DNA from: Verrucomicrobium sp. BvORR034
GTDB taxonomy: Bacteria; Verrucomicrobiota; Verrucomicrobiia; Verrucomicrobiales; Verrucomicrobiaceae
Direction of reading: 5' to 3'
NCBI RefSeq assembly: GCF_000739635.1
Contig: NZ_BATQ01000050.1
Location: forward strand, 1-64,000
Length of the DNA: 64,000 nt
The first letter of the stretch is position 1. Each line of letters opens with the position of its first letter. Positions 12,404-59,110 of this stretch are shown in pieces. The notes under the pieces were generated by a model. That model did no database searches. It was given only the letters and a program-made list of their open reading frames with translations, and was not told where the DNA came from. Position numbers and translations under genes: made by a program.

Positions 12404-12820
12404 TCAAGGATAGTGGCGAAATTTGAAAGCGTTGGCGAAAGATCGGGCGGGGTCCTGCTGGCTCTGCTGGCGTCTTCCGGGGTGGTAGATCACCTCAATC
12501 ACGCGTACCGGGTAGGCCCGATAGACCTGGGCCAGCTCCTGCATGTATTCCCCCAGTTCCGGTGTGCGGGGGGCAAACTGGTAGGTCGTCGATCCCTGGC
12601 TAGGTGATGCCTTTTTTAATGCCAGGCCATGCTCCACCGCCGTCTCGAGCCAGGCGGTGATGGAACCGCGGGAGCTCAGAATCTTGCTGTATACCTCATC
12701 CGCTGTGAAAGCCGTGTCGGGTGCCGCTTCTAGCAGCAACATCACCTCCAAATGCTCCACGGCAAATACATAGTGCTCCACGAAGTTTCGGATGCGGTCT
12801 GTGAGTGCTCCTTCTGCCAC
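12404..12820 (-). CDS. Winged-helix-like protein upstream of DUF5985 pair
   Basis: A 138-residue protein if it starts at GTG 12820; the open frame reaches another GTG at 12925, adding 35 low-complexity residues. The part around [20 protein letters not shown] and [14 protein letters not shown] reads like a winged helix-turn-helix. The C terminus is charged. It leads the unit containing the two DUF5985-like genes and lies divergent to the poly-HAMP kinase gene. It could be a DNA-binding regulator of the locus or a protein-interaction domain. No named family recognised. Confidence 0.6.
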
Positions 12821-13098
12821 GTGAAAAGCTGTCGGGTGTACGGGTGGGATTGGGGTGGGTGAACAGTTCTGAGGCTCGGAATAGCAGGGGTGATTGGACC
12901 CAGTGTTCGCAGCCCGGTCTCGCACTGGATGGGTTTATTTTGTCTGTCTTGCAAATTAAAGTGTTGGGCGACGGCGGTCGTATTGAGGTAAAGCTTTGCC
13001 CTGACCCACCAGCGCGGCGGCCAGCCGTCGCGCGATTCCGTATCCCCGCGTCTCGCTTCTTCGTCTTTTTCCCCTCATCCGCTGCCGCAAGTGTGCCC

Positions 13099-44139: not shown

Positions 44140-47100
44140 TTACATCACTGGGACCTCTTCTGCGGGAATTTCCGCTGTGACCTCGGATCCTGCGTCGGAG
44201 GTCTCTTCGGCGGCTGGAGCAGGCTCGGTTTCCTCGGCGGTTTCGGCGGCCGCGCTCTTCTTGCCGCGGGTCTTCTTGGGCAGGGCGGAAGGCGGGGTCA
44301 GGCCCATGGCATGGGCCGCTCCACCGCGGACGGTTTCGGCCACGGTCGGGGCGTTGTCTTCCAGCGACACCTTCTCGTTGGTCATGCGCACGCCCACTGG
44401 CTTGCTCACGCCGAACTCCTGCATGGTCACCCCGTAGATCACGTCCGCCTTGGACATGGTGCGCTTGTTGTGCGTCACGATGATGAACTGGCTGGCGTTG
44501 ATGAACTTGTCCAGCATGGCGAGGAAGCGCTTGATGTTGGACTCGTCCAGCGGCGCGTCGAGTTCGTCCAGCACGCAGAAGGGGCTGGGGCGGACCATGA
44601 AGATGGAGAACAGCAGGGCCACAGCGGTCATGGAGCGCTCACCACCGGAAAGGAGGCTGATGCTCTGAAGCTTCTTGCCCGGGGGCTTGGCGATAATCTC
44701 GATGCCGCACTCCAGGGGATCATTCTCGTCCTGCAGCATGAGGTCGGCCTGGCCGCCGGCGCCGAAGAGTTCCTTGAAGTTCTCACGGAAGTTGTTCCGG
44801 ACCTGGATGAAGGTCTCGGTGAACATGGTCTGCGTGGTATCATTGATCTTCGCGATCACCTGGAGCAGCTCCTCCTTGCTCTTTACAAGGTCGCCGTGCT
44901 GGGTCTCGAGGAATGTGTGGCGTTGTTCGAGTTCCTCGAACTCCTGGATGGCGTCCAGGTTCACCGGGCCCATGCTTTCCAGACGCTGGCGCAGGTCGTT
45001 GACGATTTCCTGAACCAGATCCCAATCCGGCCCGCGCTCCAGGGCGGCGGCGTCGAAGAGGGGATTGCCCTCCATCTCACTGTCAGAGGTGGAGCTGGCG
45101 TCAGCGGATGATGCCCCTTCGTTTTCAGAGGAGGAATCGTCGTCGGAGATGCTGTCGTTGCGGGAGGACAGGGTGGCCCGACGCTTGCTGGTGCGGTCGA
45201 AAGTCTTCTTCTGCTCAGAGATGGAAAGCAGCAGGGAGTGCGGATCCGGCTCGAAGGCATCGAGACTGACCTGATAACGCTCCTGTACGTGTTTGATGAG
45301 GTTCTCCAACTTCATCTCCACGCGGGTCTGCTGGACCTCGGCGCGGCTGCGGTGGTCATTGAGCTCACCGTGGCGGGAGCGGATGGCATTGAGTTCCGTC
45401 TCCAGCGCGGTCACTCGCTCGAAGGCGGCATTGCGACGCTCCACGGATTCCCGGCCTTCATTGTCCACATTGCTCAACAGGCGGCGGGCTTCTTCGGTCT
45501 CCTCCACCAGGCGGCGGTTTTCTGCGACGGCGGAATCAATGCGCTGCTTCCAGATGAAGCACTCATTTTCGTAGCGGCTGATGCTAGACTCGAGTTCCTC
45601 AAGACGGCTGGCAAGCGGGGCCTTTTGACGCTCCACGTTCTGGAGGGCGTTTTGCTCAAGGGCCAGGGCTGTCTTGAGTTCGTTCAGGCGCTCGGTGGAC
45701 TCCACCTCACGGCGGATCACGGATTCAATCTGGGTCTCCAGGGCGCGTTCGCGCTCTTGAGTTTCCTCGATCTCGTAGAGGGCGATTTGATTGGCCTCGC
45801 GATGCTGCTGGATCTGGGCCTCGGCGGCGGAAAGGCGTTGGGCGATTTGTCCCTGCTCCCACTCGAGGGAGTCGAGTTTGGCGGTCGCCTGCTGAAGGGT
45901 TCGTTGAACGACGCTTACTTTGCCCTGGTACTGGCTCAGGGCCTCACGGTTCATCTGGGAGGCGTCCCGGGCGTTGGCCTCCTCACGCTGCTGCTCTTCC
46001 AAGGCCATGCGGAGGTCCTCGATGAGCACTTCTTTTTCTACGACCTGGATGTCGAGCGCTTCGACTTGCACCCGAAGTTCCCGCAGTTCGGTCTCGCGAC
46101 GCAGGGTGGAGGCTGCCTCTTCTTTGCCTGCCCCGCCATGCAGCACGCCGTGCTCGGTCAGGACTTCTCCCTTCAAGGTGACGAACGCCAGATCTGAGTG
46201 ATCGTGTTTCAACCGCATGGCCGTCTGCAGGTCGTCCACGATCAGGACATTTCGCAGCACGTGTTCCACGAGGGGCTGTACGTGCGGCTGGGATTTCACC
46301 TTGTCCAGTGCCCATGCGACGCCGCCGTTGGGCATGAACTGGCGTTCGGTCCCGCCGTTGCGCCACATAAGATCCTGCGGAATCACCGCTGCTTTTCCGA
46401 GGCGCTGGTCCGTGAGCTTTTGCAGCACCTCGTCAGCCAGGGAGGTGTGGTTCAGCACAATGGCCTGGAGGTGATCGCGGAGGGCTGCTTCGATGGCGGA
46501 GATGAACTGGGGCTCCACCTCAATGCCCGAGGCCACGAGGCCGCGGATGCCGCCCTTGATGCGGTCGGGATCGTCCAGGCCCTTCAGAATATTCTGCGTG
46601 CCCAGTTCCAGGCCTTCGCCCTTCTCCAGGATCTGCTGCAGCACCTCGAGGCGTGAGCGACGCTGGGTGAGCTGGCGTTGCAGATTGTTGAGTTCCTCAG
46701 AGGCAGCGTCACGTTGACGGCGCTGCTCCTGAATGGTGTTGGTCAGCTCCTTGAGCTTGTGCTCCAGCTCGGCACGGACGGTTTCCAGTTCTTCAATCTG
46801 ACGCTGGAGATGATCAAACTCCACCTGGCTGGCTTCGCGGGCCTGCATGGCGGATTGTTTGTCATGTGCCAGGGCCTCATGTCGCTGGCGGTCCGTCGCC
46901 ATCTGGTTTGTCAGGCTTTGGGCCTTGGCATCGGCCGTGGCGGCCTCGCCTTCCAGGCGGCGGAAAGATTCACGCAGGGTGCGCCGCTCCATCTCCAGCT
47001 TCTGGCGCTCTGGGATGATGGCGTTGTGCGTGATCTGGTGCTCCTCCAGAGCGTACTGGCGGCTTTCAATGGTGTTGCGGATCGAGGAGAACTGCTCATC

Positions 47101-48126
47101 TGCAGCGGCAAGTTCGCGCTGCTGACGGTCCACCATGTCCCGGTTGTTGGTCGCGTCCTCTTCGTTGCGGCGGATCCGGCCTTCCAGTTCCTCCACGCGT
47201 TCGCGGTTGAACTCGATCTTGCTCTCGGACCCCTGGATCTTGGAGCGAAACTCCTGAGACTGCTGACGCAGGCCATTGATCGTGGACTCCACCTGATGGT
47301 AGATTTCACGGGTCTCCGTGACTTCCTGCTCCTTCGCATGGACGCGCTGATGCAGGTCGTTGAGCTCCGTCATCAGGGAGATGATCTGGTTCTCCGACTC
47401 AGTCTTCTCCGCGGTGTATTCTGTGAAATGTTTGTGGCCGAGGTGCAAGTCCAGGATGCGGAGGTCCTTGTGCACCACTTGGTAGCGCTTGGCCTTCTGA
47501 GCCTGGCGGTGCAGGGTGCCCATCTGGCGCTTCACTTCCGCGATGATGTCTGCCACGCGGAGGAGGTTGGCCTCCGTGTACTCTAGCTTGCGGAGGGCTT
47601 CCTTTTTCTGGCCTTTGAACTTGGTGATGCCAGCCGCTTCTTCGAAGACAGAGCGGCGGTCTTCCGGCTTGGCACTGATGAGCATGTCGATCTTGCCTTG
47701 CTCCATCACGGAGTAGGCTGATCGGCCGATGCCCGTGCCCGCCAGAAGCTCCTGGAAGTCCTTCAAACGGCAGATGGTGCCGTTGATGCGGTACTCAGAG
47801 CGTCCATCGCGGAAGACGCGGCGGCACATGGCGACTTCATTGTAGTCCACCCCCAGGCCCTGCTCGCAGTCTGCCAGGGTCAGGATGACTTCCGCCATGC
47901 CCACAGGCTTGCGCTTGTCCGTCCCGTTGAAAATAACGTCCGCCATTTCCGCCCCACGGAGGGCCTTCGCGGAAGTTTCCCCCAGTACCCAGCGGATGGC
48001 GTCCACCACGTTTGACTTGCCGCATCCATTGGGACCCACAATGCCGGTAACGCCCGTGTGGAACTCAAACAACGTCTTGTCAGCAAAGGACTTGAAGCCG
48101 TGGATTTCGAGGGACTTGAGATACAT
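44140..48126 (-). CDS. smc: Chromosome segregation ATPase SMC
   Basis: A 1,328-residue SMC. The N-terminal head has Walker A VGPNGCGKSN (about 32-41); two long coiled-coil arms flank a hinge (about 510-660, with GLVASGIEVEPQFISAIEAA). The C-terminal head holds the LLSGGERSMTAVALL signature (about 1160) and Walker B FCVLDELDAPLDESN. Unusual parts are a Ser/Asp/Glu-rich insert at about 985-1020 (DDDSSSENEG) just before the C-terminal head, and an acidic Ala/Glu/Thr tail of about 60 residues. SMC loads on DNA with ScpAB to organise the nucleoid; scpA/scpB are not in the window. ATG at 48126. Confidence 0.96.
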   Translation of the reverse strand: MYLKSLEIHGFKSFADKTLFEFHTGVTGIVGPNGCGKSNVVDAIRWVLGETSAKALRGAEMADVIFNGTDKRKPVGMAEVILTLADCEQGLGVDYNEVAMCRRVFRDGRSEYRINGTICRLKDFQELLAGTGIGRSAYSVMEQGKIDMLISAKPEDRRSVFEEAAGITKFKGQKKEALRKLEYTEANLLRVADIIAEVKRQMGTLHRQAQKAKRYQVVHKDLRILDLHLGHKHFTEYTAEKTESENQIISLMTELNDLHQRVHAKEQEVTETREIYHQVESTINGLRQQSQEFRSKIQGSESKIEFNRERVEELEGRIRRNEEDATNNRDMVDRQQRELAAADEQFSSIRNTIESRQYALEEHQITHNAIIPERQKLEMERRTLRESFRRLEGEAATADAKAQSLTNQMATDRQRHEALAHDKQSAMQAREASQVEFDHLQRQIEELETVRAELEHKLKELTNTIQEQRRQRDAASEELNNLQRQLTQRRSRLEVLQQILEKGEGLELGTQNILKGLDDPDRIKGGIRGLVASGIEVEPQFISAIEAALRDHLQAIVLNHTSLADEVLQKLTDQRLGKAAVIPQDLMWRNGGTERQFMPNGGVAWALDKVKSQPHVQPLVEHVLRNVLIVDDLQTAMRLKHDHSDLAFVTLKGEVLTEHGVLHGGAGKEEAASTLRRETELRELRVQVEALDIQVVEKEVLIEDLRMALEEQQREEANARDASQMNREALSQYQGKVSVVQRTLQQATAKLDSLEWEQGQIAQRLSAAEAQIQQHREANQIALYEIEETQERERALETQIESVIRREVESTERLNELKTALALEQNALQNVERQKAPLASRLEELESSISRYENECFIWKQRIDSAVAENRRLVEETEEARRLLSNVDNEGRESVERRNAAFERVTALETELNAIRSRHGELNDHRSRAEVQQTRVEMKLENLIKHVQERYQVSLDAFEPDPHSLLLSISEQKKTFDRTSKRRATLSSRNDSISDDDSSSENEGASSADASSTSDSEMEGNPLFDAAALERGPDWDLVQEIVNDLRQRLESMGPVNLDAIQEFEELEQRHTFLETQHGDLVKSKEELLQVIAKINDTTQTMFTETFIQVRNNFRENFKELFGAGGQADLMLQDENDPLECGIEIIAKPPGKKLQSISLLSGGERSMTAVALLFSIFMVRPSPFCVLDELDAPLDESNIKRFLAMLDKFINASQFIIVTHNKRTMSKADVIYGVTMQEFGVSKPVGVRMTNEKVSLEDNAPTVAETVRGGAAHAMGLTPPSALPKKTRGKKSAAAETAEETEPAPAAEETSDAGSEVTAEIPAEEVPVM

Positions 48127-48493
48127 GACGGAAGCGGGAGCAGAGCGTTGAAATTGAGCGGTGAACGTGGTGCCGGGTGGAAGCGGCAGGAGATCACTTG
48201 GGGAACTTAAATCTCAGGTGACAAAAAGGGCAAGAAAGATGTGATTGCACAAGCTGTAGGGGTGCGCTCTCGTATATAGCACAAGATGTGGTCCTGTCTT
48301 GCAGGAATTTTTCACCCCGAAAAACGCTTAATATCGCTTGAAAAGTGGTCGAAAACGCTGCGTTCCCGGCGGGATGGGGAAAGAAGGAAAACGCCTCCGT
48401 CGCAACAGCTGAGTTATTCACATTTATCCCGACAGGGTTGTTCACAGCCGCATTTTTGCGCTGAGAGGCCAAGGGGTCAGGTGTGAATGGTAG
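48127..48493. other. Intergenic region upstream of smc
   Basis: A 367-base gap with no supported gene. It is noticeably more AT-rich in the middle than its flanks and must contain the smc promoter, read leftward. I could not fix promoter boxes with confidence. Confidence 0.5.
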
Positions 48494-49273
48494 TCAGTTG
48501 GCGTTCCCGATCTTCACAATGTCTCCCTCGCTCACTTTCCAGATCACTTTGTCTGGGGTGAGAACATAGAGGGGAGTTTTGTGCAGGAGGCTCAGAAACA
48601 CGTGAGTTTCCACCGGGGTGCTGCTCACGACATGTGACATTGTCACACCCACCACCTCCTTGTCTTTGGTCGCCCCGGGGTCTGGTTTCTGCAAGACGAG
48701 GAAGCTCCGGGACAGTGCGTCCACCTGTTGAACCTTGCCATCGGCGGCGACCGTGACGCGGTAGTGTCCACCCGCAACGACCTCGTTCGGATTCCGGGTG
48801 GCGGCGAGGGCATAGACAATGAACCCGCCTCCTGTCGGTGCATCGAGGACCTCGAAGTTGTACTTCTTGGTCATGAATCTCGGGATCGCCGCAAGTGCGG
48901 CTTGTCGCGCAGTGAACCGCCGTGCGACAGGCTCGGGCAAGTCGGCCCCTTTGTGATCCTCGATCTTGGGGGCAGTTTTTTCGTAGAAGGTGACGCTATA
49001 GGCCAGTGAGATCTTGGAGTCCCGCTCCTGGATGAAATAGACGCGTTGCACGTCGTTCTCGGAGTGGGTAATCCATCCCCGGACCGGGACACTGCGCGCC
49101 TCGGGCTTGGCAGCCAGGAGAGCATCGGTCGCGGCGGAGGCAATCTGATCGCGTTGATAGAGCTCTTTGCCCAGAGCCTTGATGGTGGGCAGTGGCAGCT
49201 CTTGGATGCTTTCCTCGGCACGGGAGGTGAGCGTTGAGAGCAGAAGCAGGATGACAACAACAGCGCGGTGCAT
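48494..49273 (-). CDS. Secreted protein of unknown function
   Basis: A 259-residue protein with a signal peptide (MHRAVVVILLLLSTLTSRAE). The mature protein mixes helices and strands; IPRFMTKKYNFEVLDAPTGG and GGHYRVTVAADGKVQQVDAL recall small periplasmic lipid- or cargo-binding folds, but no family is recognised. It ends with a short SH3-like stretch (VIWKVSEGDIVKIG). ATG start. Single gene on the minus strand. Confidence 0.6.
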   Translation of the reverse strand: MHRAVVVILLLLSTLTSRAEESIQELPLPTIKALGKELYQRDQIASAATDALLAAKPEARSVPVRGWITHSENDVQRVYFIQERDSKISLAYSVTFYEKTAPKIEDHKGADLPEPVARRFTARQAALAAIPRFMTKKYNFEVLDAPTGGGFIVYALAATRNPNEVVAGGHYRVTVAADGKVQQVDALSRSFLVLQKPDPGATKDKEVVGVTMSHVVSSTPVETHVFLSLLHKTPLYVLTPDKVIWKVSEGDIVKIGNAN

Positions 49274-49321
49274 GGTAGCGAAGGATGAGGGTGATCCTGT
49301 CTGAACGTTGCTGGTGAGATT

Positions 49322-49621
49322 CTATTCGCGAGTGTTTGGAGAAATATGCGGGTTTTGTCCCCAGGATGAGGGCCAGTAGAGAGCGCTCATGGGGGTGACA
49401 GAAAGACCGCTGGAAGCGACCCTGAAAAATCGGTAGGGAGGAGGGATCTGGCCTGTGCCATAGGCGACTCCCACCACAGATCCTACGGAGAGTTCCTCCG
49501 CCAGTACCACCCAAACAATGGGATCCGTGGGATGGTGCTTCTGAAAGTGCTCACGTGCGGCCTGCTGTATTTGTTGCAGGCGGCGCTTCTGCGCCAGCAA
49601 GGTTCTGCCACGCCGGATCAT
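49322..49621 (-). CDS. Small hypothetical protein
   Basis: A 99-residue frame with an ATG start. The N-terminal part is basic and helical (KRRLQQIQQAAREHFQKHHP); the middle is hydrophobic beta-like (IVWVVLAEELSVGSVVGVAY). There is no cysteine and no signal peptide. It lies between the secreted unknown and the chelatase on the same strand. Codon use appears normal for the neighbourhood, but I recognise no family. Confidence 0.45.
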   Translation of the reverse strand: MIRRGRTLLAQKRRLQQIQQAAREHFQKHHPTDPIVWVVLAEELSVGSVVGVAYGTGQIPPPYRFFRVASSGLSVTPMSALYWPSSWGQNPHISPNTRE

Positions 49622-49708
49622 GGTGGGGGAGGCTGGAAGCTAGGGGCAGTTAGAGGCGTTCGTCATCGGCGATTGACCTTCCAACGTGATTCACTTCGGC
49701 AAGAACCT

Positions 49709-51190
49709 TCAATGACTGTGGCTGTGTCCCTGCGCGTGGGCGCCGGTCACGCTGCCGCCGCGTGCGATCTCGCGAGCTGCGGAAACAATGTGGGTGCAGG
49801 CTTCCACGCAGAGCAACGGGATCTCATCTGTTGGAACGGTTTCCGGACGCTTGTTGTCCTCGATGAGTGTCAGAGGCTGTTCAGGGTTGAGCTGCCAGGT
49901 GATGCGTCGGATGCACTTGGTTTCGGCGTCACAGTGGCAGGCCACCATTTCCTGGGCCTGCTCGTCGGTGATCTTGTTGGAGAACCGGTACATTCCCGTC
50001 TGGCGGCCTAACGTCTGGCGCAACGGCACGGGCTCCAATGTGCCTGCCGCCTGATGCCGGGCGAGGCCGAGCGCTGCGGGATAGAGGAAATCAAGCGCCA
50101 GCCGGAGGGCGGCTTCATCTGCCAGCACGAGCTTCCAGCCGTGGCGCAGCGTCGGGGCGGTCTTGAGAGGGCGGAACTGCCCGGCATCATCGTAGATGCT
50201 GAGGGTGCGGGCTTCGAGCGGATCAGTGGAGACGCTCAGATCTCCAGCGCCTGCATCATCAACATGACTGAGGTGCCAACCCTGACCGTCTTCAGAGGGA
50301 ACGGCGGAGATTTGGCCCAGCTTGAACGGAGCGCGTGGAAGCGCGGGGATTGAGCTGTCACGGAGGGGGGCGGCCTCCAAAGCTGCGCCATATTTGGCTT
50401 TGAAATCCTTCACCTGATCCAGAATGACCTCGGCCATGAGGGCTTCAGTCCCAATGGCGCTGCTGTAGTACAGGCTGCGGCCATAGAGGGCATGGGGATT
50501 GTGGCGGAAAACTTCGTTCTGACTGAGGGCGGCGGTGGGCTCGCTCTCCATGCCCAGCAGGACTGGAATGTCCTGGTAGCTGTGCAAGCCGTCCGCAATG
50601 AAAAAAGGCACGACCACCACATGAGGGGCGGTGCTGAGCTCATGCCACTTGGCGACGAGCGGCTCCTCCTCCATATAGGCATCCAGTACCTCGGCAAAGC
50701 CATAGCCGCCGTCGCGGATGAGTTTCACCTGATCCTCGATCGCCTTGCGGGAGTTCTCGTTCAGGCTGGTGCCGTGACCTACGATGATGAGGCAGGTTTG
50801 GTCGCGCGGGACACCGGGAGCGACCTCCTCGGCCCGGGCCAGTAGCAGACGGGTCATGGAAGGGTGAATGCCGACGGGGTCACAGTAGGCGTAGGTGACG
50901 CCGTCTCGCACGGTGACCGGGCCGGTCAGCCGCAGTTCGCGAGGGAGCACGTCCTGACAAAAATAACCTTCGCTGATGAAGTTGGGCACCACATAAACCA
51001 AGGGCTGCGTGGTCTGGTAAAACACTTCCCGCAGGGAGGGTTCCTCCTTCCAGAAGGCACAGGCGACTTCGGCGAAAAGCCCCCGGCGGCGGATCTCATC
51101 CGCATGCTGGTGTGTGGGCGCGCTGGAGTCCGGGTTCATCGTTGAACCGTGACCCACGATCACCAATGCCGCTGCTGTGTCCGGAACCAT
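49709..51190 (-). CDS. CbiX-type sirohydrochlorin chelatase with C-terminal Cys domain
   Basis: A 493-residue protein from ATG 51190. Two CbiX-like halves (about 8-125 and 135-260) each carry VGHGS/VGHGT, the metal-chelatase histidine motif. These enzymes put cobalt, iron or nickel into sirohydrochlorin. A C-terminal region (about 300-480) of the DR2241 type has paired cysteines (CHCDAETKCIRR and LCVEACTHI) that could bind a Fe-S cluster, and the protein ends in a His-rich tail (HAQGHSHSH) suited to metal storage. It heads a minus-strand gene; no cobalamin or sirohaem genes flank it. Confidence 0.82.
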   Translation of the reverse strand: MVPDTAAALVIVGHGSTMNPDSSAPTHQHADEIRRRGLFAEVACAFWKEEPSLREVFYQTTQPLVYVVPNFISEGYFCQDVLPRELRLTGPVTVRDGVTYAYCDPVGIHPSMTRLLLARAEEVAPGVPRDQTCLIIVGHGTSLNENSRKAIEDQVKLIRDGGYGFAEVLDAYMEEEPLVAKWHELSTAPHVVVVPFFIADGLHSYQDIPVLLGMESEPTAALSQNEVFRHNPHALYGRSLYYSSAIGTEALMAEVILDQVKDFKAKYGAALEAAPLRDSSIPALPRAPFKLGQISAVPSEDGQGWHLSHVDDAGAGDLSVSTDPLEARTLSIYDDAGQFRPLKTAPTLRHGWKLVLADEAALRLALDFLYPAALGLARHQAAGTLEPVPLRQTLGRQTGMYRFSNKITDEQAQEMVACHCDAETKCIRRITWQLNPEQPLTLIEDNKRPETVPTDEIPLLCVEACTHIVSAAREIARGGSVTGAHAQGHSHSH

Positions 51191-51253
51191 GCTGTATTTA
51201 GAGAACGTGCAGAATCGGGGTGTCCTCCCCAGATTCATCCTTTTGGAGGTAGA

Positions 51254-51844
51254 TTAGCGAAGGGTCCGCGGGATGAAGACCGCTTCCATGCCAGCGGCTT
51301 TGGCTGCCTCCAGACCGCTCCGCCCGTCTTCAAAGACCAGGCATTCCTCCGGCGGTACGCCCATGCGCTCCGCAGCGAGGAGGAACATGTCTGGGGCAGG
51401 CTTGCCCCGCTCCACATTGATCGGCGTGATGATGTGAGGGAAAAGGTGGAACAAGCCGGTGTGCTTCAGGCAGGCGTGTACGATCGGCTCCTCACTGCCG
51501 GAGGCGACGGCCATGGGCAGTTTGCCGAAGGTGGAGAGAGCGAGGTCCGCGACGGGATTGACCCGTTGAATCTCCGGGATGCGCTTCTCGAACATCTCGG
51601 CCTTGATGCGCACCACCGCGTCGGGATCCACGTTGACCTTGTGCAAGCCGTTCAGGACCACCACAGTGTCGTATTCCTTCACTCCGGCGAAGTGGTAGAA
51701 CTCCTCTTCCGTAAAGGCGTACGTCGCGCCGTTGAGCCGGAGGGACTCAATCCAGCAGACATAGTGGAGCGGCATGGAGTCAACGAGCGTGCCGTCGCAG
51801 TCGAAGATGTAGGCGGAGAACTTGCGGTCAGGGAGTTGCAGCAT
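51254..51844 (-). CDS. HAD-family phosphatase (beta-phosphoglucomutase-like)
   Basis: A 196-residue HAD hydrolase. The catalytic motif FDCDGTLVDSMP (I), VASGSEEP (II), KPAPDMFLLAAE (III) and VFEDGRSGLEAAKAAGM (IV) are all present, with a small helical cap at 20-90 (EEFYHFAGVKEYDTV). It would cleave a sugar phosphate or isomerise one; the exact substrate is open. ATG at 51844. It lies 63 bases upstream of the chelatase on the same strand. Confidence 0.87.
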   Translation of the reverse strand: MLQLPDRKFSAYIFDCDGTLVDSMPLHYVCWIESLRLNGATYAFTEEEFYHFAGVKEYDTVVVLNGLHKVNVDPDAVVRIKAEMFEKRIPEIQRVNPVADLALSTFGKLPMAVASGSEEPIVHACLKHTGLFHLFPHIITPINVERGKPAPDMFLLAAERMGVPPEECLVFEDGRSGLEAAKAAGMEAVFIPRTLR

Positions 51845-51867
51845 GGGTGTCGCTCAAGATTACGAAT

Positions 51868-51895
51868 AAAAAGCCCTTCCGGGGGCCGGAAGGGC
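51868..51895 (-). terminator. Intrinsic terminator of the coiled-coil protein gene
   Basis: GCCCTTCCGG (51873-51882) pairs with CCGGAAGGGC (51886-51895) around a 3-base loop. Read on the minus strand the stem is followed by TTTTTATT, so it ends the transcript coming from 52462. Confidence 0.88.
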
Positions 51896-51949
51896 GGGGG
51901 AAAACCGACGCGAGGGCTGGTCGTTCTGTGAAACGGGTCAGGCCCGAAA

Positions 51950-52462
51950 TCAAGCAGCGGATTCCGCGTGTGTGTGATTGGTGCTCTGCGCCTTGGAGGC
52001 TGCTTCTGCAGGCAGGGCGACGGCATTGTTGCCACCCACCAGCTTGCGGAAGATGCGCTGCGGGAAGCTGTTGCCCTTTTCCTCTTCATTGAGGGAGGAC
52101 AGGGCATTGGCCTTGGCAATTTCCCAGGCGGGAGCGAAGCCGGGAGCGCTGATGTTCATCTGCTTTTCCGCACGAGCGTAGATTTCCAGCTCGCGGTTCG
52201 CGCGGTTGTCCTGGCGGTCGTTGAGCCGGGCCACCTGCAGCCGGAGGTTCTCGTTCTCACCCTTCAGCCGGTCGCGATCCTTGGTGAGGTCGGTCTGCTG
52301 CTTGGATTCAAGATCCATTTTGTCATTGAGCATCTTCTTAAAGCGGCGCAATTCGCGGGCCGTCTTCCAGTGAGACCGAAGAGCGGAGAACAAGAGGGCC
52401 AGGCCAATGAAGAGGCCAATACCAAAGGCCCAAGCGTGGGTATAGTTAAGTTGGAGGGTCAT
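51950..52462 (-). CDS. Single-pass membrane coiled-coil protein, unknown
   Basis: A 170-residue protein: one membrane helix (about 9-29: AWAFGIGLFIGLALLFSAL), then a coiled coil (about 35-90: KDRDRLKGENENLRLQVARL), then a linker with APGFAPAWEIAKANAL and a final Ala/Thr-rich part. The layout recalls LapA-like or lipid-trafficking membrane tethers, but no family is named. Clear ATG at 52462 and its own terminator. Divergent from the large ATPase gene. Confidence 0.6.
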   Translation of the reverse strand: MTLQLNYTHAWAFGIGLFIGLALLFSALRSHWKTARELRRFKKMLNDKMDLESKQQTDLTKDRDRLKGENENLRLQVARLNDRQDNRANRELEIYARAEKQMNISAPGFAPAWEIAKANALSSLNEEEKGNSFPQRIFRKLVGGNNAVALPAEAASKAQSTNHTHAESAA

Positions 52463-52708
52463 GGGGCAGGGAATCTAAGCGACGTTGCAGCCTTGGCAAA
52501 GGGCAAAGGCATGCTTCACGCTGAGGTAATGTAATACTGTTCGATCCTCGTGACTGGCAAAGTGTCAGAATCTGCGGAAGCCGCTTGCAACTTCTGGAAA
52601 TTCTAGTAAAAACAGGGTTGTGTGGAAAGACAAATATAGTATTGATTGTTCATCCCGCGAATGCGGAAACTCTCCCTTTTGCGAATCAATTTAGAACTTC
52701 GGGTTAAC

Positions 52709-55441
52709 ATGATTCCTGCCAATAACCCACATTCGGAGGCCACCGGGACTGCGAAAGCTGCGATTCATCCTGATCGGGTGGCGCTGGCCAATCTACAACC
52801 GTTCGGCAACGACATTTGTGCCACCTGGCATGAAGGGGAGGGTGAGCCAGCGGTGGCCATCCATGAGACGGCCCTGGAAGAGCTGCGAGCACTGGAAAAC
52901 GAGGGGCGTGTCATTCTGCTGAGTGCTCCCAGAGCAGGCCACGGGAAAACGCACCTGCTCGGCCGCGTGGCAGAAAAGCTGCAATCTGAGGCCGTGGTGG
53001 CAAGCCTGCCCTGGCAGACGGAGGATGGTATGACCTGGGCTGGCTGCGGACGTGGCATCGTGGCGGACCTCGCCTATTCAGGGGTGAAGCCCAATCTTTT
53101 GCAGCGCGTATGCAGCGGGGTGCATGCGGCCTTGCTCAAGCGACTCATTCAGACGGGGCGGATCCCCAGCACGGACCCCAGCCAGGCGCTGCGGGTGTTG
53201 TCTCAGGATCCGATGAACCTGTTTTCCGACAGCGGTCCCGCCAAAGTGATCGGCGAGTGGTTCAGGAAACACTACGACCAGCTGCACACGACCCTCACCG
53301 AGGTGACCTACCTGGAAGGGCGCGCGGAGGTGGCGGACTGGTTGCGGGCCATGTTTGACTACGTGGAGCAGCCCACTGCGGCCAATCTGGCGACGTTGGC
53401 GGCTGGCATGGATGTGACGGGGCCGGAGCAGCTCGTGCGATTCCTCAAGCTGGTGGTGATTTGGAAGCCGGTGGTGCTGGTGGCCGATCACATGGACGGC
53501 CTCTATCGTGACGCCGAGGCGGGAGTTTCTGTGGCGCGCATGGCGCTGGAGCTTACCTCCCTGCCCGGTGTGCGGGTGGTGCTGAGCATGAATCAGGACC
53601 TGTGGGACACCACCTTTGGCCGACAACTGCCCAGTGCGCTGGAGGACCGGCTCAACGCCCGCAATGTGTCCCTCGCTGGTCTGAATGCGGCGGAGGCGAT
53701 TGAGCTCATTGAGTTGCGAATGGCCAAGGTGGGGGTGGGGGAGCGCCATCGTGAAGAGTTTCTCGGTTATCTGGACCTGGACCGTTATTTCCTGGGTCGT
53801 CCCACTGGCAGTGTCTCCACGCGTGGCATGCTGCGGCATGCCGCCCAGGCCTGGCGCAAATGGCTGCGCTCTGCGGCTACAGAGACCGGCAAGTCCGGTC
53901 CCCTCGGTGCGGCCGATGGGGATGCTCTGCCGCTGATCCTGGAGGATGTGGGCAGCCTGCACGCTCCTTCTGCGATGTCGCCCTTCCTGCCTGAGATTGA
54001 GGAAGAGGAAGAAGAAGACCTCTCGGCCCTGGCCAAGCATTTGGCAGAAGACCAAGGGGGCGAAGTCGTGAGTCTGGCAGGATCCCCGGCACCTGCCGCT
54101 CCCGCGGGTGGGAACATTGCTCCCATCCTGCCGCAAGTGAATATCGAGCCGAGGAACTCGTTCCTGCCGCTCGTGGAACCGCCAGCGAGCGTGCCCGCCG
54201 CATTCGCTCCGGAAGTGGCGTCTGTTGCACCATCAAGCCCAGTCGCAGCGCCAGAGGAACTGCCCGCGCCGCCAGTTGCTCCTCCGTCCCCGCCGATAGA
54301 GCGGTCTCCGGCCAAGCCAGCATTCTTCTCGCCGTTTAGCCCGGACAACGGTCAGCACGCACCCGTGCCTGTACCGGCTCCTCCGGCAGAGGCGGCGCCC
54401 CAATTTGCGCCCCATCCGCCCGAAAGTGTCTCGCCGCCGCAGCAGCCGTTGACGGGACCGGAGTCGAGCACCGCCAGCCAACCAGACAGCAGCTTTACGC
54501 CCGCATCAAAACCCTCCCCGGAGGAGGCGAACTCATCGCCATCAGGCGCTTCGGCAGTCCCAGGGACCTTTGGTGGGCCTGCGCCGACCTCAGCACCAAC
54601 GCAGCCTCAGGCCGATTCGTCTGAGAACAACTTCGAGCGGCTCCGCCAACTTCTTTCGAAGGTGAGGGCAACCGCTGAGCCCACCGTTCTGCCGGATGCG
54701 GCGTCGAAGTCGCCGCAGAAGGTCAGGATCGTTCCGGCGAGTCCGGCCAAAGAGTCGCCTTCCAAGCATCGGCTGATGCCCCCGGGTGGCCCTGCCGGCG
54801 TGGCGGCGACGACCACGGCGACCGCGCAGTCCAATGGCATCGCGACGGAGTCCAAAGGCACGCTCCCTCAACAATTTAGCGCCCTGCGCCAGCAAATTCT
54901 CGGTCGAGATCAGCTTCTGAAGGTCAACTGGCCCATGATCGCCAATGTCGTGCGCGTGGCCGGGAAGCGATTCCCAGTCGTGACTTATGATGAGTTGGAA
55001 CTGCCGGGCTTGGGGGGGCGTTCTCTCTCCCGCTGGCGGTTGCAGGGGGCGGAGATGATCTTTGGGCTCGAAGACTTTGCTGACGAACGGTATTGGAAGA
55101 CGGTAACGAGCTTCGTGGTGGGCCGAGTGGCGGAACTCACCGCAGCGGCGAGTCAGATCGGGCAGCCCTCTCCGCAGATCAAGCTGCTGGTCTTTAAGGG
55201 TGACATGGAGGCCGCTCCCTTGGCGGGACTGCTTCAGCAGGACGTCATTCCTTCCGCGCTGCGGACGCATCTGGATGTTGTGCACCTCGACAACCGCAGC
55301 CTCGCCAGCCTCTATGCCATGAACCAGATCCTCACTGACACGGAGACTGCCCCAGGGGGTGGTGATCTCCATGGGGTGATGACCTCCCTGGCAGGTGAGT
55401 TGGACTTCTTCTGGAAGCGGATTACCCGTCCGCTGCGCTAG
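52709..55441 (+). CDS. Large P-loop ATPase of unknown family
   Basis: A 910-residue protein from ATG 52709. The N-terminal NTPase region (about 60-420) has a Walker A-like APRAGHGKT (residues 73-81, Ala for the first Gly) and a Walker B-like VVLVADHMD (about 258). After it come an acidic tract EIEEEEEEDLSALA (about 430), a Pro/Ala-rich disordered region (about 460-715) and a C-terminal alpha/beta domain (about 720-910: LGRDQLLKVNWPMIANVVRV; DFFWKRITRPLR). I recognise no complete family; a STAND/AAA-like regulator is one idea. It stands alone between a divergent membrane coiled-coil gene and an ABC ATPase gene. Confidence 0.7.
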   Translation: MIPANNPHSEATGTAKAAIHPDRVALANLQPFGNDICATWHEGEGEPAVAIHETALEELRALENEGRVILLSAPRAGHGKTHLLGRVAEKLQSEAVVASLPWQTEDGMTWAGCGRGIVADLAYSGVKPNLLQRVCSGVHAALLKRLIQTGRIPSTDPSQALRVLSQDPMNLFSDSGPAKVIGEWFRKHYDQLHTTLTEVTYLEGRAEVADWLRAMFDYVEQPTAANLATLAAGMDVTGPEQLVRFLKLVVIWKPVVLVADHMDGLYRDAEAGVSVARMALELTSLPGVRVVLSMNQDLWDTTFGRQLPSALEDRLNARNVSLAGLNAAEAIELIELRMAKVGVGERHREEFLGYLDLDRYFLGRPTGSVSTRGMLRHAAQAWRKWLRSAATETGKSGPLGAADGDALPLILEDVGSLHAPSAMSPFLPEIEEEEEEDLSALAKHLAEDQGGEVVSLAGSPAPAAPAGGNIAPILPQVNIEPRNSFLPLVEPPASVPAAFAPEVASVAPSSPVAAPEELPAPPVAPPSPPIERSPAKPAFFSPFSPDNGQHAPVPVPAPPAEAAPQFAPHPPESVSPPQQPLTGPESSTASQPDSSFTPASKPSPEEANSSPSGASAVPGTFGGPAPTSAPTQPQADSSENNFERLRQLLSKVRATAEPTVLPDAASKSPQKVRIVPASPAKESPSKHRLMPPGGPAGVAATTTATAQSNGIATESKGTLPQQFSALRQQILGRDQLLKVNWPMIANVVRVAGKRFPVVTYDELELPGLGGRSLSRWRLQGAEMIFGLEDFADERYWKTVTSFVVGRVAELTAAASQIGQPSPQIKLLVFKGDMEAAPLAGLLQQDVIPSALRTHLDVVHLDNRSLASLYAMNQILTDTETAPGGGDLHGVMTSLAGELDFFWKRITRPLR

Positions 55442-55529
55442 TCCCGCCTCCGGAGTGAGGCGCAAAAGAACTTTGGATTTTTGAAGTTTCCCGGTGGGGG
55501 GCATGTGCTACACTCGCCCCGCCCGGCTT

Positions 55530-56318
55530 ATGACACCTCTCGTTCGCGTCAACCAGCTCAAAATTCACTTCCCTGTGCATGCAGGGTTCCTGCGCCGCAA
55601 AGTGGATGAGATCCGTGCGGTGGACGAGGTCAGCTTCTCCATTCCTGAAGGGGGCACTCTGGGCCTCGTGGGAGAGAGCGGCAGTGGCAAGTCCACCATC
55701 GCCCGCGCGGTGCTCAAGCTCATACCCGCCACTGGCGGGGAAGTGATCTATCGGGACAAGAACATCCTGCCACTGAGCGAGGGCGAGTTTCGCCCCTATC
55801 GCAAGGAGATGCAGATGATCTTCCAGGATCCGTTTGGCTCGCTCAATCCCCGGATGACCATTGAGCAGATCATCGCGGAACCGCTGCGCATTCATTTCCG
55901 CCATCTGGACAAGGCAGGTCGCCGGGACACGGTGGCCGCATTGCTGGAGCGCGTGGGCCTGCCCGCAGAGGCCATGTGGCGCTATCCGCATGAATTCAGC
56001 GGTGGCCAGCGCCAGCGCATCGGCATCGCGAGAGCCTTGGCCGTGCAGCCCAAGTTCCTGGTGTGTGACGAGCCCGTCAGTGCCCTGGACGTGAGCGTGC
56101 AGGCCCAGATCATCAATCTTCTGCAGGACCTGCAGGAGCAGTTCAAGCTTACCTATCTCTTCATCGCCCACGACCTCGCCGTGGTGGAGCACATGAGCGA
56201 TGAGATCATTGTGATGCACCGCGGAAAAATTGTCGAACAGGGCACCGCGGAGCAGGTCTGTGAAGATCCTCATCACGAGTACACCAAAAAGCTCCTCGCG
56301 GCGGTACCTTCTCTTTAG
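55530..56318 (+). CDS. ABC ATPase, oligopeptide (OppF/DppF) type
   Basis: A 262-residue ABC transporter ATPase from ATG 55530. It has Walker [10 protein letters not shown], the signature [14 protein letters not shown], Walker [19 protein letters not shown] and the final [10 protein letters not shown] seen in DppF/OppF. The usual C-terminal oligopeptide-type extension is short or missing. No permease, binding-protein or partner ATPase genes are adjacent, so it either works with parts encoded elsewhere or has another role. The open frame from 55494 would add a non-conserved stretch. Confidence 0.87.
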
Positions 56319-56350
56319 ACGAAAGACTTGAAGACAGAAGACAAAAGACC
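56317..56350. repeat. AGAC array with 7-8 base phasing
   Basis: AGAC occurs at 56317, 56324, 56332, 56339 and 56346 (spacing 7, 8, 7, 7). The first copy overlaps the stop codon of the ABC ATPase gene. Its complement, GTCT, is phased likewise at 56426-56469 ahead of rodA, giving a long imperfect inverted repeat. Confidence 0.7.
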
Positions 56351-56425
56351 TGACCATGGCTCTGAACTGCGTTTGAGAGTTCGGAAAAGAGTGGTGGGTG
56401 ATGTCTTCGTGGATTCGCGAGGCGA

Positions 56426-56469
56426 GTCTTCATCAAGTCTTTGGTCTTTGGTCTTCCAGTCTTTTGTCT
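56426..56469. repeat. GTCT array with 7-8 base phasing, inverted partner
   Basis: GTCT at 56426, 56437, 56444, 56451, 56459 and 56466, ending five bases before the rodA start at 56474. It can pair with the AGAC array at 56317-56350, which would place rodA's start next to a large stem. Confidence 0.65.
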
Positions 56470-56473
56470 GCCA

Positions 56474-57670
56474 ATGACCCCTCTCTTTCGCAAATTTCTA
56501 GGTCTTAACTGGATCCTCGCTCTTAACATGATCGCATTGATCGTGTGGGGCGTTTGGGCCATCTACAATGCCTCTTCCTTCCGTGAGGGGATGAATCTTT
56601 CCACCATCTGGCGCAGTCAGGTGCAGTGGGGGGTACTTGGGCTGGCAGTGTTTGGAGTGGCATCGCTCATCGACTACAAGTGGGTGCGTTGGGGAGGGTG
56701 GATCCTTTATTTTGGCGGGATCCTGGGGCTGATCGCCGTGAAGATTTGGGGTATTGAGGAGAAGGGCGCAAAGAGCAAGATCCTCATTGCGGGTGTCCCC
56801 GTTCAGCCATCCCAGTTGGCCATTGTGGCGACCATTGTTTCACTCGCTGTCGTCTTGGGAGACCTGCATCGCATCGCTCCGGTCTTCAGGCACCATTGGC
56901 TGCGGCTGGGGGTGTCTGGAGTGCTGGCGGGAATTCCGATGGCGATGGTATTGAAGGAACCGGACCTCGGCTCGGCCGCAGTGTATGGTCCGGTGGTGAT
57001 TGCCATGCTGCTGGTGGGAAGTATTCCCTTCCGGTACCTCATCACACTGTTCTTGGGGGTGATGTGCATCCTTCCTGTCGCCTACTTCTTCGGTCTCAAG
57101 CCTTACCAGAAAAAGCGTGTGGAGGTGTTCGTCAACATGCTCGCCAACAAGAAGGTGGACACCCTGGGGGAAGCCTACATGGCAGACAAGGTGAAGATTG
57201 CCGTGGGCTCTGCGGGTTTTGAGGGGAAGGGGCCACTCTCCGTCAAAGTGGACGGTCGCTCGGTGCATCGCACTTTTTACACTCCTACTGAGGCGATCAA
57301 CGACTTCATCTATTCCGTGATCGTCGAGGAATTCGGGTTTCGAGGAGGGCTCTTGCAGATTGTGGTCATGGCCCTGCTTTTATTACAGTGCATCTTCGTG
57401 TCTTTCTATGCCCGGGACAATTTAGGCAGGCTGATCGTGGTGGGGATTGTGGGCATGTTGTTTGCCCACTCGATGCAAAACATGGGGATGAACATCCTCA
57501 TGATGCCCATCACCGGTCTGCCTCTTCCCTTCACCAGCTACGGCGGTACGTTCCTGATCGTTTGCATGTTCCTCATGGGCATGGTCCAGAGCGTCTGGAT
57601 CCACCGCAACATTTCCCCGATCAAGAAGACGAGTCGGCGTGATGACGAAGGGGAGCAGGACGAGTTTTGA
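56474..57670 (+). CDS. rodA: SEDS-family peptidoglycan glycosyltransferase, RodA type, copy 1
   Basis: A 398-residue membrane protein with about ten helices, of the RodA/FtsW (SEDS) family that polymerises lipid II into peptidoglycan during elongation. It carries the EPDLGSA motif, the VPVQPSQLA loop, and the catalytic aspartate in INDFIYSVIVEEFGFRGG. It ends PLPFTSYGGTF plus a charged tail. ATG at 56474 begins MTPLFRKFLGLNW; the upstream start at 56441 lies in repeat DNA. A close paralogue follows 213 bases downstream. No PBP2 or mreBCD gene is in the window. Confidence 0.9.
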   Translation: MTPLFRKFLGLNWILALNMIALIVWGVWAIYNASSFREGMNLSTIWRSQVQWGVLGLAVFGVASLIDYKWVRWGGWILYFGGILGLIAVKIWGIEEKGAKSKILIAGVPVQPSQLAIVATIVSLAVVLGDLHRIAPVFRHHWLRLGVSGVLAGIPMAMVLKEPDLGSAAVYGPVVIAMLLVGSIPFRYLITLFLGVMCILPVAYFFGLKPYQKKRVEVFVNMLANKKVDTLGEAYMADKVKIAVGSAGFEGKGPLSVKVDGRSVHRTFYTPTEAINDFIYSVIVEEFGFRGGLLQIVVMALLLLQCIFVSFYARDNLGRLIVVGIVGMLFAHSMQNMGMNILMMPITGLPLPFTSYGGTFLIVCMFLMGMVQSVWIHRNISPIKKTSRRDDEGEQDEF

Positions 57671-57685
57671 CCCGGCTTCGCGGGG

Positions 57686-57718
57686 AGACAGAAGACTTCA
57701 AGACGCAAGACCCAAGAC
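57686..57718. repeat. AGAC array with 7-8 base phasing
   Basis: AGAC at 57686, 57693, 57701, 57708 and 57715 (spacing 7, 8, 7, 7), 16 bases after the first rodA stop. Same pattern as at 56317. Confidence 0.7.
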
Positions 57719-57883
57719 TTGAACTGAAGAAAGTTCGTTTAAGACGGGTAGGGCCGATGTGGGGGGCCTGTTTGCCCATGACATTTTCAACTGATGTGAA
57801 AAGGCTTTGAGCATTCACATCGTGCTTGAGTCTGAGTTGGTCCAGTGGTGTGTGGGACGGGCTTCCGCAGCGCTGAGTTCGTC

Positions 57884-59110
57884 ATGCGTACGCTTCTTCG
57901 CAAGTTCTGCCGTCTCCATTGGCTGCTGGTCATCAACCTGTTCGCGCTGCTCGCATGGGGAGTGTGGGCGATCTACAACGCGTCTTCGTTCAGAGAGGGA
58001 CTCTATTTATCGGGGATATGGCGCACTCAATTGCAGTGGCTGGCATTCGGAATTGTGACGTTAGTGGTCACGGCCGTGATCGACTATAAGTGGCTTCGCT
58101 GGGGCGGTTGGCTTCTTTATGTGGGAGGGCTGGGATTGCTCTTTCTATCCTTTGTGAATGATCGGGGCTGCGGAGCAAGAGGCGCAATCAGTCTGGGCTT
58201 CAGCAGCCTTTCTGCTCCACAACTCGCTTTGGCGATGACGGCCGTTGCTCTCGCTGTTGGACTTGGGCATTTGCATCAAGCGGTGCCAATATTCCGGCAC
58301 CAATGGTTGCGCATCGTGCTAGCCGTGGTGCTCGCGGTGATTCCGATGAGGATGTTGTATGGGGTGCCGGATTTGGGAGCGGCTTGGACTATCGGGCTGG
58401 TATTCGTGTTGATGTTGCTGATGGCCAGCATCCCGGGACGGCATCTGGCTCTACTCCTGGCTGTTGGGATTTGCCTAGTGCCCTTGTGGTACCATTTCGG
58501 ACTCAAGTCGTACCAGAAAAAGCGGGTGGACGTCATGGTCCAGATGATGACCAGCCCGAGCTTGGAGGTGCGCGGAGAGGCCTACATGAGCGACAAGCTG
58601 AAGGTGGCGGTCGGCTCGGCTGGCTTTACAGGGAAGGGACCGCTGTCCAGCAAGGTGGAGGGGCGCTCGGTGCACCGGACCTATTTCACTCCTACCGAGT
58701 CGATCAACGACTTCATCTTTGCCGTCATCGTGGAGGAGTTTGGCCTTTTGGGAGGACTGTTGCAGATGGTGCTCTTTTTGCTTCTGTTTCTGCTGTGCAT
58801 CCATGTGGCCTACACCGCCAGAGATGAACTGGGCCGGATGCTGGTCGTGGGAGTGGTGGCAGTGTTGTTTGTCTGCTCCTTGCAAAACATGGCGATGAAC
58901 ATCTGCGTGTTTCCCATCACCGGGCAGCCTTTGCCTTTCACCAGCTTCGGAGGAATCTACCTCGTCCTCTGCATCTTCATGATGGGCTTGGTCCAGAGTG
59001 TGTGGATCCATCGTCACGATGTTGCGCCGCTGCCATCTCCGGAGTCAGATTCTGGGGAGAATTCAGTGCTTTCTTCAGAAGTGGAGCCACAGCCCCGTCT
59101 CAATGGGTGA
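57884..59110 (+). CDS. SEDS-family protein, RodA paralogue, copy 2
   Basis: A 408-residue RodA paralogue. It parallels copy 1 closely: YNASSFREG, KPYQKKRV/KSYQKKRV, GEAYMSDKLKVAVGSAGFTG, and the catalytic aspartate in INDFIFAVIVEEFGLLGG. It differs in the region where copy 1 has QPS (here LSAPQLAL) and in a Gly/Cys-containing NDRGCGARG loop, so it may have specialised. ATG at 57884. A tandem duplication is the simplest origin, and its divergence shows it is not a recent assembly artefact. Confidence 0.87.
   Translation: MRTLLRKFCRLHWLLVINLFALLAWGVWAIYNASSFREGLYLSGIWRTQLQWLAFGIVTLVVTAVIDYKWLRWGGWLLYVGGLGLLFLSFVNDRGCGARGAISLGFSSLSAPQLALAMTAVALAVGLGHLHQAVPIFRHQWLRIVLAVVLAVIPMRMLYGVPDLGAAWTIGLVFVLMLLMASIPGRHLALLLAVGICLVPLWYHFGLKSYQKKRVDVMVQMMTSPSLEVRGEAYMSDKLKVAVGSAGFTGKGPLSSKVEGRSVHRTYFTPTESINDFIFAVIVEEFGLLGGLLQMVLFLLLFLLCIHVAYTARDELGRMLVVGVVAVLFVCSLQNMAMNICVFPITGQPLPFTSFGGIYLVLCIFMMGLVQSVWIHRHDVAPLPSPESDSGENSVLSSEVEPQPRLNG

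Follow-up and report, generated by a model that had tools for sequence, protein, structure and literature searches.

A large AAA+ ATPase of Verrucomicrobium akin to the ATPases of HerA/FtsK-type cassettes, possibly in a standalone form

The first 64,000 nucleotides of contig NZ_BATQ01000050.1 of Verrucomicrobium sp. BvORR034 (assembly GCF_000739635.1), referred to here as the window, contain on the forward strand a gene (52709–55441) for a large ATPase of 910 amino acids (aa). The reading frame is open from a TTG at 52646, an alternative start, or from the ATG at 52709, from which the 910 residues are counted, to the stop at 55441. The protein is composed of an N-terminal domain (N-domain, residues 22–400), a linker (401–709) and a C-terminal domain (C-domain, 710–910). 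Full-length orthologues (residues 1–910) were found in two of the three other genomes of the genus, with 90% and 85% identity, and in the remaining genome, which is 76% complete, a frame of 515 aa aligned to residues 26–390 at 41%. The ratio of nonsynonymous to synonymous substitution rates (dN/dS) against two congeners was 0.014 and 0.025 for the N-domain, 0.044 and 0.027 for the C-domain and 0.22 and 0.26 for the linker, and with values this low the gene is a real coding gene and not a chance open reading frame (ORF). The initial annotation, made from the sequence alone, had described a large unassigned ATPase with a variant Walker A motif, an acidic tract, a long Pro-rich spacer and a well-formed C-terminal domain, and each of these features was upheld. 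No family library matches the protein convincingly: taken alone, it matched no Pfam or PHROGs family at E values up to 1 and no PDB sequence at E values up to 5, and NCBIfam and PADLOC returned non-significant matches to Hda (E = 0.2) and Avs2 (E = 0.077). The family was therefore followed through an N-domain alignment (A1, 41 rows) and a C-domain alignment (A2, 40 rows), from which duplicates and a second fragment of locus L010 were removed and incomplete rows omitted (2 of 43 and 3 of 43, respectively), and through a wider N-domain set (A8) of 58 relatives, which omits 10 of the 68 rows of the tree described below (L151 and nine rows of f1). The family f1 is that of the window, Verrucomicrobiaceae, placed through L031 (Verrucomicrobium sp. 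BvORR106) and taxonomy.

The N-domain (52772–53908) carries the AAA+ motifs in AAA+ order; the same motifs are common to other AAA+ clades. Walker A, APRAGHGKTH (residues 73–82, with K80; 52925–52954), varies from the pattern GxxxxGK[ST] by a Pro in place of the first Gly, as in 36 of the 41 family members, and G77, G79 and K80 are invariant in all 41. Walker B, VLVADHMDG (residues 256–264; 53474–53500), follows the pattern D-x-[LMI]-D, with D260 and D263 invariant and a His after the first Asp in 36 of the 41 N-domains. The catalytic Glu is usually found at the position that is H261 here, and the Walker B pattern of Orc1 is D-E-L-D, which the D-H-L-D of this family resembles. A putative sensor 1 (LSMNQDLW, residues 292–299; 53582–53605), a candidate arginine finger (PSALEDRLN, residues 308–316; 53630–53656) and a putative sensor 2 (VSTRGMLRH, residues 369–377; 53813–53839) complete the set. 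K80, T/S81, D260, D263, N295, R314 and R372 were kept in all 41 aligned N-domains, in which the Arg of the 'DR[LI]' motif and both sensor 2 arginines (R372 and R376) are invariant. When the 41 N-domains were scanned singly (E up to 0.5), 27 matched AAA_16 (best E = 4.7e-9) and 22 matched NACHT (best E = 2.8e-7); among the 58 relatives (E ≤ 0.1), 44 matched AAA_16 (best E = 4e-9) and 22 AAA_22. The N-domain of the window protein stayed under the curated cut-offs, with scores (cut-offs) of 15.8 (32.6) bits for AAA_16, 12.5 (26.7) for NACHT, 13.2 (27.1) for nSTAND1 and 13.9 (34) for nSTAND5. The AAA+ nature of the N-domain is well supported. When the structural model of the domain was re-aligned to the top 1000 chains, the first 19 of the best 50 were Orc/Cdc6 proteins or complexes containing the origin recognition complex (ORC), with 191–221 residues aligned and Z scores of 7.2 to 5.6, which are below 8 and were obtained with a model of mean predicted local distance difference test (pLDDT) 51. 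Fold alone was rejected as proof, both domain models being weak, and was used where motifs and kinship agree with it; on the three together, the N-domain likely belongs to the Orc/Cdc6 clade.

The linker (53909–54835) is acidic and rich in Pro, Ala and Ser, with the tract EIEEEEEED at residues 429–437 and a composition of 21.9% Pro, 16.5% Ala and 12.7% Ser over residues 441–700; the family alignment, the composition and the dN/dS values suggest that it is probably disordered. It includes a short conserved motif, FERLRQLLSKVR (residues 642–653; 54632–54667). This FEKLREMLxxLR-like motif of f1 proteins is similar to the C-terminus (IDDLLRQFRERYG-like) found in 10 of the 13 relatives in a second family, f2 (tails of L127–L138), and the two may form a common docking helix. 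Pro/Ala-rich stretches of many hundred residues also separate the ATPase part from the C-terminal end in L163 (6306–10739, 1477 aa) and L164 (7840–12912, 1690 aa), which are further copies.

The C-domain (54836–55438) is conserved and was modelled, from two sequences, as an alpha/beta fold (mean pLDDT 68.8, predicted template modelling score 0.64). No Pfam family matched more than one of the 40 C-domains. The nickase N.BspD6I was ranked first by Foldseek (probability 0.96, E = 0.015) and in the re-alignment (Z 6.7, root mean square deviation (rmsd) 5.5, 152 residues, enzyme residues 379–573), with XisH proteins (Z 6.2 and 5.9), the small subunit of R.BspD6I (5.4), VC1899 (5.3) and Can2 (5.0) in lower rows. 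XisH, VC1899 and Can2 are all taken here to carry folds of the restriction endonuclease (REase) type. The structure searches proposed by the initial annotation placed Orc/Cdc6 (Z 7.2) and N.BspD6I (Z 6.7) first in the re-alignments, both as weak matches. At columns 73–75 of A2, in a predicted third strand that the model suggests to be the catalytic one, E-[IVLM]-hydrophobic was found where (D/E)-x-K was sought, column 73 being E in 36 of 40 rows and column 75 being L, V, I, F or W in 37 of 40. The C-domain is likely REase-like, as judged from the model, and its nuclease is probably inactive. In genome G004, the ATPase ORF of L034 (9366–10910, 514 aa) has no C-domain that could be found; the related genome G014 has one.

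Searches of the class and the order uncovered a second group of relatives that lie in cassettes, with 19 loci (L139–L150, L152 and L163–L168). Other families of the class account for L139–L150 and L152 apart from L147; this locus and L163–L168 belong to the order, where they are further copies. In small local searches, the profile of the window C-domain matched 13 of the 19 cassette ATPases at E ≤ 1e-3 (L139, 7e-21; L140, 2e-17; L147, 2e-16; L165, 7e-12; L145, 6e-11; eight weaker). Just upstream of the ATPase, 14 of the 19 loci have a gene for a protein of about 205–300 aa with repeated sequence of winged helix-turn-helix (wHTH) type, here called multi-wHTH, which gave a weak match to the TBPIP/Hop2 winged helix. 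Eleven of these 14 are rows of the multi-wHTH profile (A7) itself, whose search added L140, L143 and L149; the eleven A7 rows and the eight rows of the REase profile (A6) match their own profiles by construction. An FtsK/HerA-type motor, fused or downstream, was verified with hidden Markov models in 10 of the 19 loci (L141–L145, L147, L148, L152, L166 and L168), was recognised by eye in L165 and, for L146 and L149, was assumed from length. No motor was noticed next to L139, L140, L163, L164 or L167, the neighbours of which lay outside the scans, and L150 is a fragment. A PD-(D/E)XK nuclease was found with Pfam in L141, L143, L144, L145 and L168 and with Cas4 models in L152 and, weakly, in L147, and the motif is degenerate in the aligned sequences of L139 and L142. 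The motor part of the cassettes was named SspH by PADLOC (E down to 8e-64). In L147, the ATPase/REase–FtsK cassette ends with a 2OG-Fe(II) (2-oxoglutarate and iron) oxygenase gene (12490–13116, E = 2.6e-36), which we presume to be AlkB-like. Sequence comparison gives good support to the kinship of the window protein with the cassette ATPases.

None of the cassette neighbours (multi-wHTH, REase, HerA/FtsK) was found beside the window gene among the nine proteins scanned (44140–59110), and the absence of a HerA/FtsK motor applies to these nine, the search for motors having been confined to them. In the genome of the window (G000), the multi-wHTH profile had no match with 21 of 21 candidates scored, and the REase profile had none with 40 of 40 scored. 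Across 57 relatives scanned, six matched the multi-wHTH profile (two weakly) and five the REase profile (three weakly). In two genomes of genus g8, a gene of about 240 aa related to the cassette multi-wHTH gene lies a few kilobases from the ATPase (L169, 6279–6992; L170, 12099–12833); these genes have an end that resembles a J-domain by eye, and the L169 copy has no Pfam match.

The cassettes fit the HerA/FtsK-capture defence systems with an Orc/Cdc6 ATPase described by Rakesh, Aravind and Krishnan (2024; PMC10853773), and that paper assigns defence ATPases and replication initiators to a common Orc/Cdc6 clade. The window protein shares with these systems an AAA+ ATPase followed by a domain of likely nuclease fold that is seemingly inactive, and it is homologous over both domains to 13 of the 19 cassette ATPases, the fold of the second domain itself being drawn from Z 6.7 and E = 0.015. 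It differs from them in its long Pro-rich linker, its strong constraint and the lack of an extra C-terminal segment, and the active REase partner, the motor in the operon and the DndG-like multi-wHTH protein of a subset of the systems are all missing next to its gene. The window protein ends one residue after its C-domain match, and other matched rows that are not in the cassette group continue for 0–21 residues, in comparison with 77–112 in six unfused cassette ATPases; three cassette tails had no Pfam match, so their wHTH nature relies on the account in PMC10853773. With Orc1/Cdc6 initiators, the window protein shares the Walker B pattern, the sensor 1 Asn, the candidate arginine finger and the sensor 2 Arg, and such initiators gave the best re-aligned structures for its low-confidence N-domain model. 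It differs from them in the Pro at the first Walker A Gly, in the His at the place of the usual catalytic Glu and in a REase-like domain that stands instead of the C-terminal wHTH, which the window protein lacks and for which there is no room after the C-domain. Related Orc/Cdc6 ATPases also occur in BREX according to PMC12839542, in which inactive REases are considered as possible nucleotide sensors; BrxC, BrxD and DUF499 proteins share the broad ATPase clade, and BrxD is termed a standalone ATPase there, but these proteins have other accessory domains and lie in BREX operons. BrxC came low in the structure list of the N-domain model (Z 5.0, rmsd 12.0). With STAND/NACHT NTPases, the window protein shares weak NACHT and nSTAND profile matches, but it falls under the curated cut-offs, has no recognised sensor repeats and ends in a REase-like domain.

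The explanation that best accommodates these results, and to which about an even chance is given, is that the family which provides HerA/FtsK-capture cassettes with their ATPase subunit also has standalone members, that the window protein is one of these and that it serves as a housekeeping DNA-bound ATPase switch. ATP-bound subunits would oligomerise on DNA by means of the invariant Walker A and B, sensor 1, arginine-finger and sensor 2 residues. Hydrolysis would probably be slow, because His replaces the usual catalytic Glu, and slow hydrolysis would make the protein an ATP-timed switch or clamp on DNA instead of a motor. Docking of DNA or of a partner, possibly a membrane coiled-coil protein encoded by the divergent neighbouring gene, would fall to the presumably inactive nuclease domain and to the conserved helix of the linker. 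The task would most likely be a housekeeping chromosome function and not restriction, since the cassette genes are not adjacent and neither the nuclease nor the multi-wHTH protein was detected in G000; the standalone state and the strong constraint make such a DNA-bound role the best inference. A bolder version is tentative and rather unlikely: the order would have turned a defence Orc/Cdc6-type ATPase into a core chromosome protein, or a core ATPase would have given rise to the cassettes, with the inactive nuclease kept for docking and a disordered tether added that may link the chromosome to the membrane coiled-coil protein. The initial annotation had suggested that the protein may be a regulator or assembly ATPase not yet described. 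It is not a wholly new kind of protein, the family fitting the Orc/Cdc6 component of the systems described in PMC10853773; literature searches turned up no publication on the standalone form, and the main texts of PMC10853773 and PMC12839542 contain no word that starts with 'verrucomicrob'.

Tracing of the phyletic pattern, as the initial annotation had advised, found the N-domain in 137 and the C-domain in 112 of the 189 genomes sampled from the order; 129 of the 137 have a single N-domain match. None of the genomes of genus g12, presumably Akkermansia, was among the N-domain matches in the 189 genomes, and the C-domain had no match in any f2 genome nor in the 13 f2 loci. In wider samples, A1 found 41 of 285 genomes in that of the class, and A2 found 9 of 236 in that of the class and 7 of 288 in that of the phylum. 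Since several whole-genome searches carried only some of their initial candidates through to scoring (13 of 64 in G000, for example; at most 10 per genome), absences and copy numbers, including the class, phylum, order, coiled-coil and one-transmembrane-segment (one-TM) counts, are not firm. In an N-domain tree of 68 rows, made by a quick method with a midpoint root for drawing only and without L168, which was too short, 18 rows of the cassette group were set off by a branch with 98% support in the Shimodaira–Hasegawa-like approximate likelihood ratio test, and the window gene lies outside them. Outside this group, the f1 rows (with L059), the f4 rows and 12 of the 13 f2 rows each grouped together, and the f3 rows fell in several places with weak support. 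The proposal offers a first functional hypothesis for a protein left blank by the family libraries whose N-domain is so widespread in the order, and a family with both a cassette group and standalone members lets the direction and the consequence of the exchange be tested in a host amenable to mutagenesis: a transposon-essentiality study of Verrucomicrobium spinosum and targeted mutagenesis in this host are reported in PMC12283558.

Several results weigh against this explanation. On the side of the N-domain, 19 of the 58 relatives matched NACHT (E ≤ 0.1), and the model, built from three sequences, is poor (mean pLDDT 51.2); with Foldseek (best E = 0.07), ORC complexes took ranks 2, 5 and 50 of the best 50, most of the others being unrelated enzymes. 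When PDB sequences were searched with the window protein, A1, A2 and A8, neither an Orc/Cdc6 chain nor a REase chain was among the matches listed, and the best N-domain rows in the profile searches were designed helical proteins. On the side of the C-domain, Tdp2 (Z 6.4) and RFC (6.0), both of different fold, tie with the nickase in the re-alignment, and Z values below 8 with a best E of 0.015 are weak and not proof; the fold matches of both domains lie under the level that would settle them. The C-domain profile did not reach E ≤ 1e-3 in L141, L142, L148, L150, L152 and L168, which are 6 of the 19 cassette loci. With midpoint rooting, the cassette group branches together with f1 (88%) among the standalone rows; the tree therefore shows neither a standalone clade nor a direction of exchange, and it may be the defence cassettes that are derived. 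No N-domain was found in 52 of the 189 genomes, nine of which belong to the window's own family, and the gene is accordingly not needed everywhere in the order. Finally, the f2 relatives, which are without the C-domain, often stand beside a secretin gene and point to the envelope: in 7 of 13 f2 loci (L127, L129–L132, L135 and L151), a secretin-family gene and then a one-TM gene lie immediately upstream of the ATPase relative, all three on one strand, the Pfam Secretin match (E = 3.9e-26) having been obtained for L131, the one locus scanned for it.

It is unlikely that the protein still serves in immunity, as a STAND-like or Orc/Cdc6-like sensor directed against phage or plasmid DNA on its own or with partners encoded elsewhere. 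Its relatives in defence-type cassettes (PMC10853773), its NACHT, AAA_16 and nSTAND matches, the wHTH-type gene near the ATPase in the two g8 genomes and the patchy detection of the N-domain in the order speak for such a sensor. However, the dN/dS of the folded domains is very low, nearly all genomes with the N-domain hold a single match, most standalone rows group by family in the tree and the multi-wHTH and REase partners were not detected in G000. A plasmid or phage origin was also considered and rejected, as tblastn with the window protein gave no match in plasmid and phage collections at E ≤ 0.01. The single relative from IMG/VR, L059 (5866–7146), joins an f1 row in the tree (92%, long branch) and reaches the end of its contig, and is for these reasons probably host DNA; a second IMG/VR scan, with A2, found nothing.

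An equally improbable alternative is an envelope ATPase, for example one that assembles a secretin or anchors the cell-wall machinery, in concert with the membrane coiled-coil protein. The gene for this protein (51950–52462, reverse strand; profile A3) is the divergent neighbour of the ATPase gene and encodes 170 aa with one TM; layout and profile search make it a possible partner. The coiled-coil family was found in 140 of the 189 genomes of the order, with both it and the ATPase N-domain in 120, the ATPase without it in 17, the coiled-coil gene without the ATPase in 20 and neither in 32. In 23 of the 120 genomes with both, the two genes lie side by side in divergent orientation (f1, ten; f3, eight; f4, five), which favours a link with the envelope across three families, but the 37 genomes with one gene do not suit it. 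The co-occurrence (Fisher p = 5e-11, uncorrected for relatedness) was not used as proof, because of the missing correction and of these 37 genomes. In f2, the secretin rows described above speak for the envelope, as does the one-TM gene, which is adjacent by coordinates in 9 of 23 genomes with an N-domain match (this count and that of 23 of 120 were read by hand from coordinate lists). One-TM matches occur in 165 of the 189 genomes, the strong ones (E ≤ 1e-85) in f2 only. Against the envelope stand the lack of a C-domain in the f2 relatives and seven f2 genomes with a strong one-TM match but no N-domain match. The link that the initial annotation had drawn from the neighbours, which included an ABC ATPase and a RodA pair, found no support in that form. 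An ABC transporter ATPase gene and then a RodA gene lie directly downstream in 6 of 19 f1 loci (the window, L031, L032, L034, L035 and L036), RodA without the ABC gene also lies there in L039, and the ABC/RodA order was seen in no laid-out locus of the other families. The part that stood is the divergent membrane coiled-coil gene, linked across three families and the single linkage of greater age; ABC/RodA neighbours are shared by close relatives only.

An ordinary AAA+ ATPase of a named family (conjugation, IstB/TniB or DnaA/Hda), narrowly missed by the scans, is very unlikely, since the matches that suggest it (Hda, E = 0.2; IstB in one member, E = 0.24; an IS5376 ATP-binding protein, E = 0.029) are all non-significant, the C-domain and the cassette kinship do not suit those families, and no transposase or conjugation protein was found among the nine window proteins scanned.

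The ATPase and coiled-coil genes share an intergenic region of 246 bp (52463–52708), in which 230 and 232 of the 246 bases are identical in the two congeners. Synonymous N-domain sites differ at 43% and 35% in the same congeners, so the region is constrained, and it is possibly a shared control region. An RNA leader was considered there and rejected, with no Rfam match in the window and folding like that of shuffled sequences (z = 0.18). Against the first congener, the dN/dS of the neighbouring genes was 0.043 (SMC), 0.009 (HAD phosphatase), 0.022 (coiled-coil protein), 0.007 (ABC ATPase) and 0.078 (first RodA copy); the second RodA-like gene (57845–59110) evolves faster, with 0.22 against the same congener. 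Two genes from the coiled-coil gene, at 49709–51238, lies a gene for a CbiX-type chelatase with a DR2241 stabilising domain and a 4Fe-4S domain.

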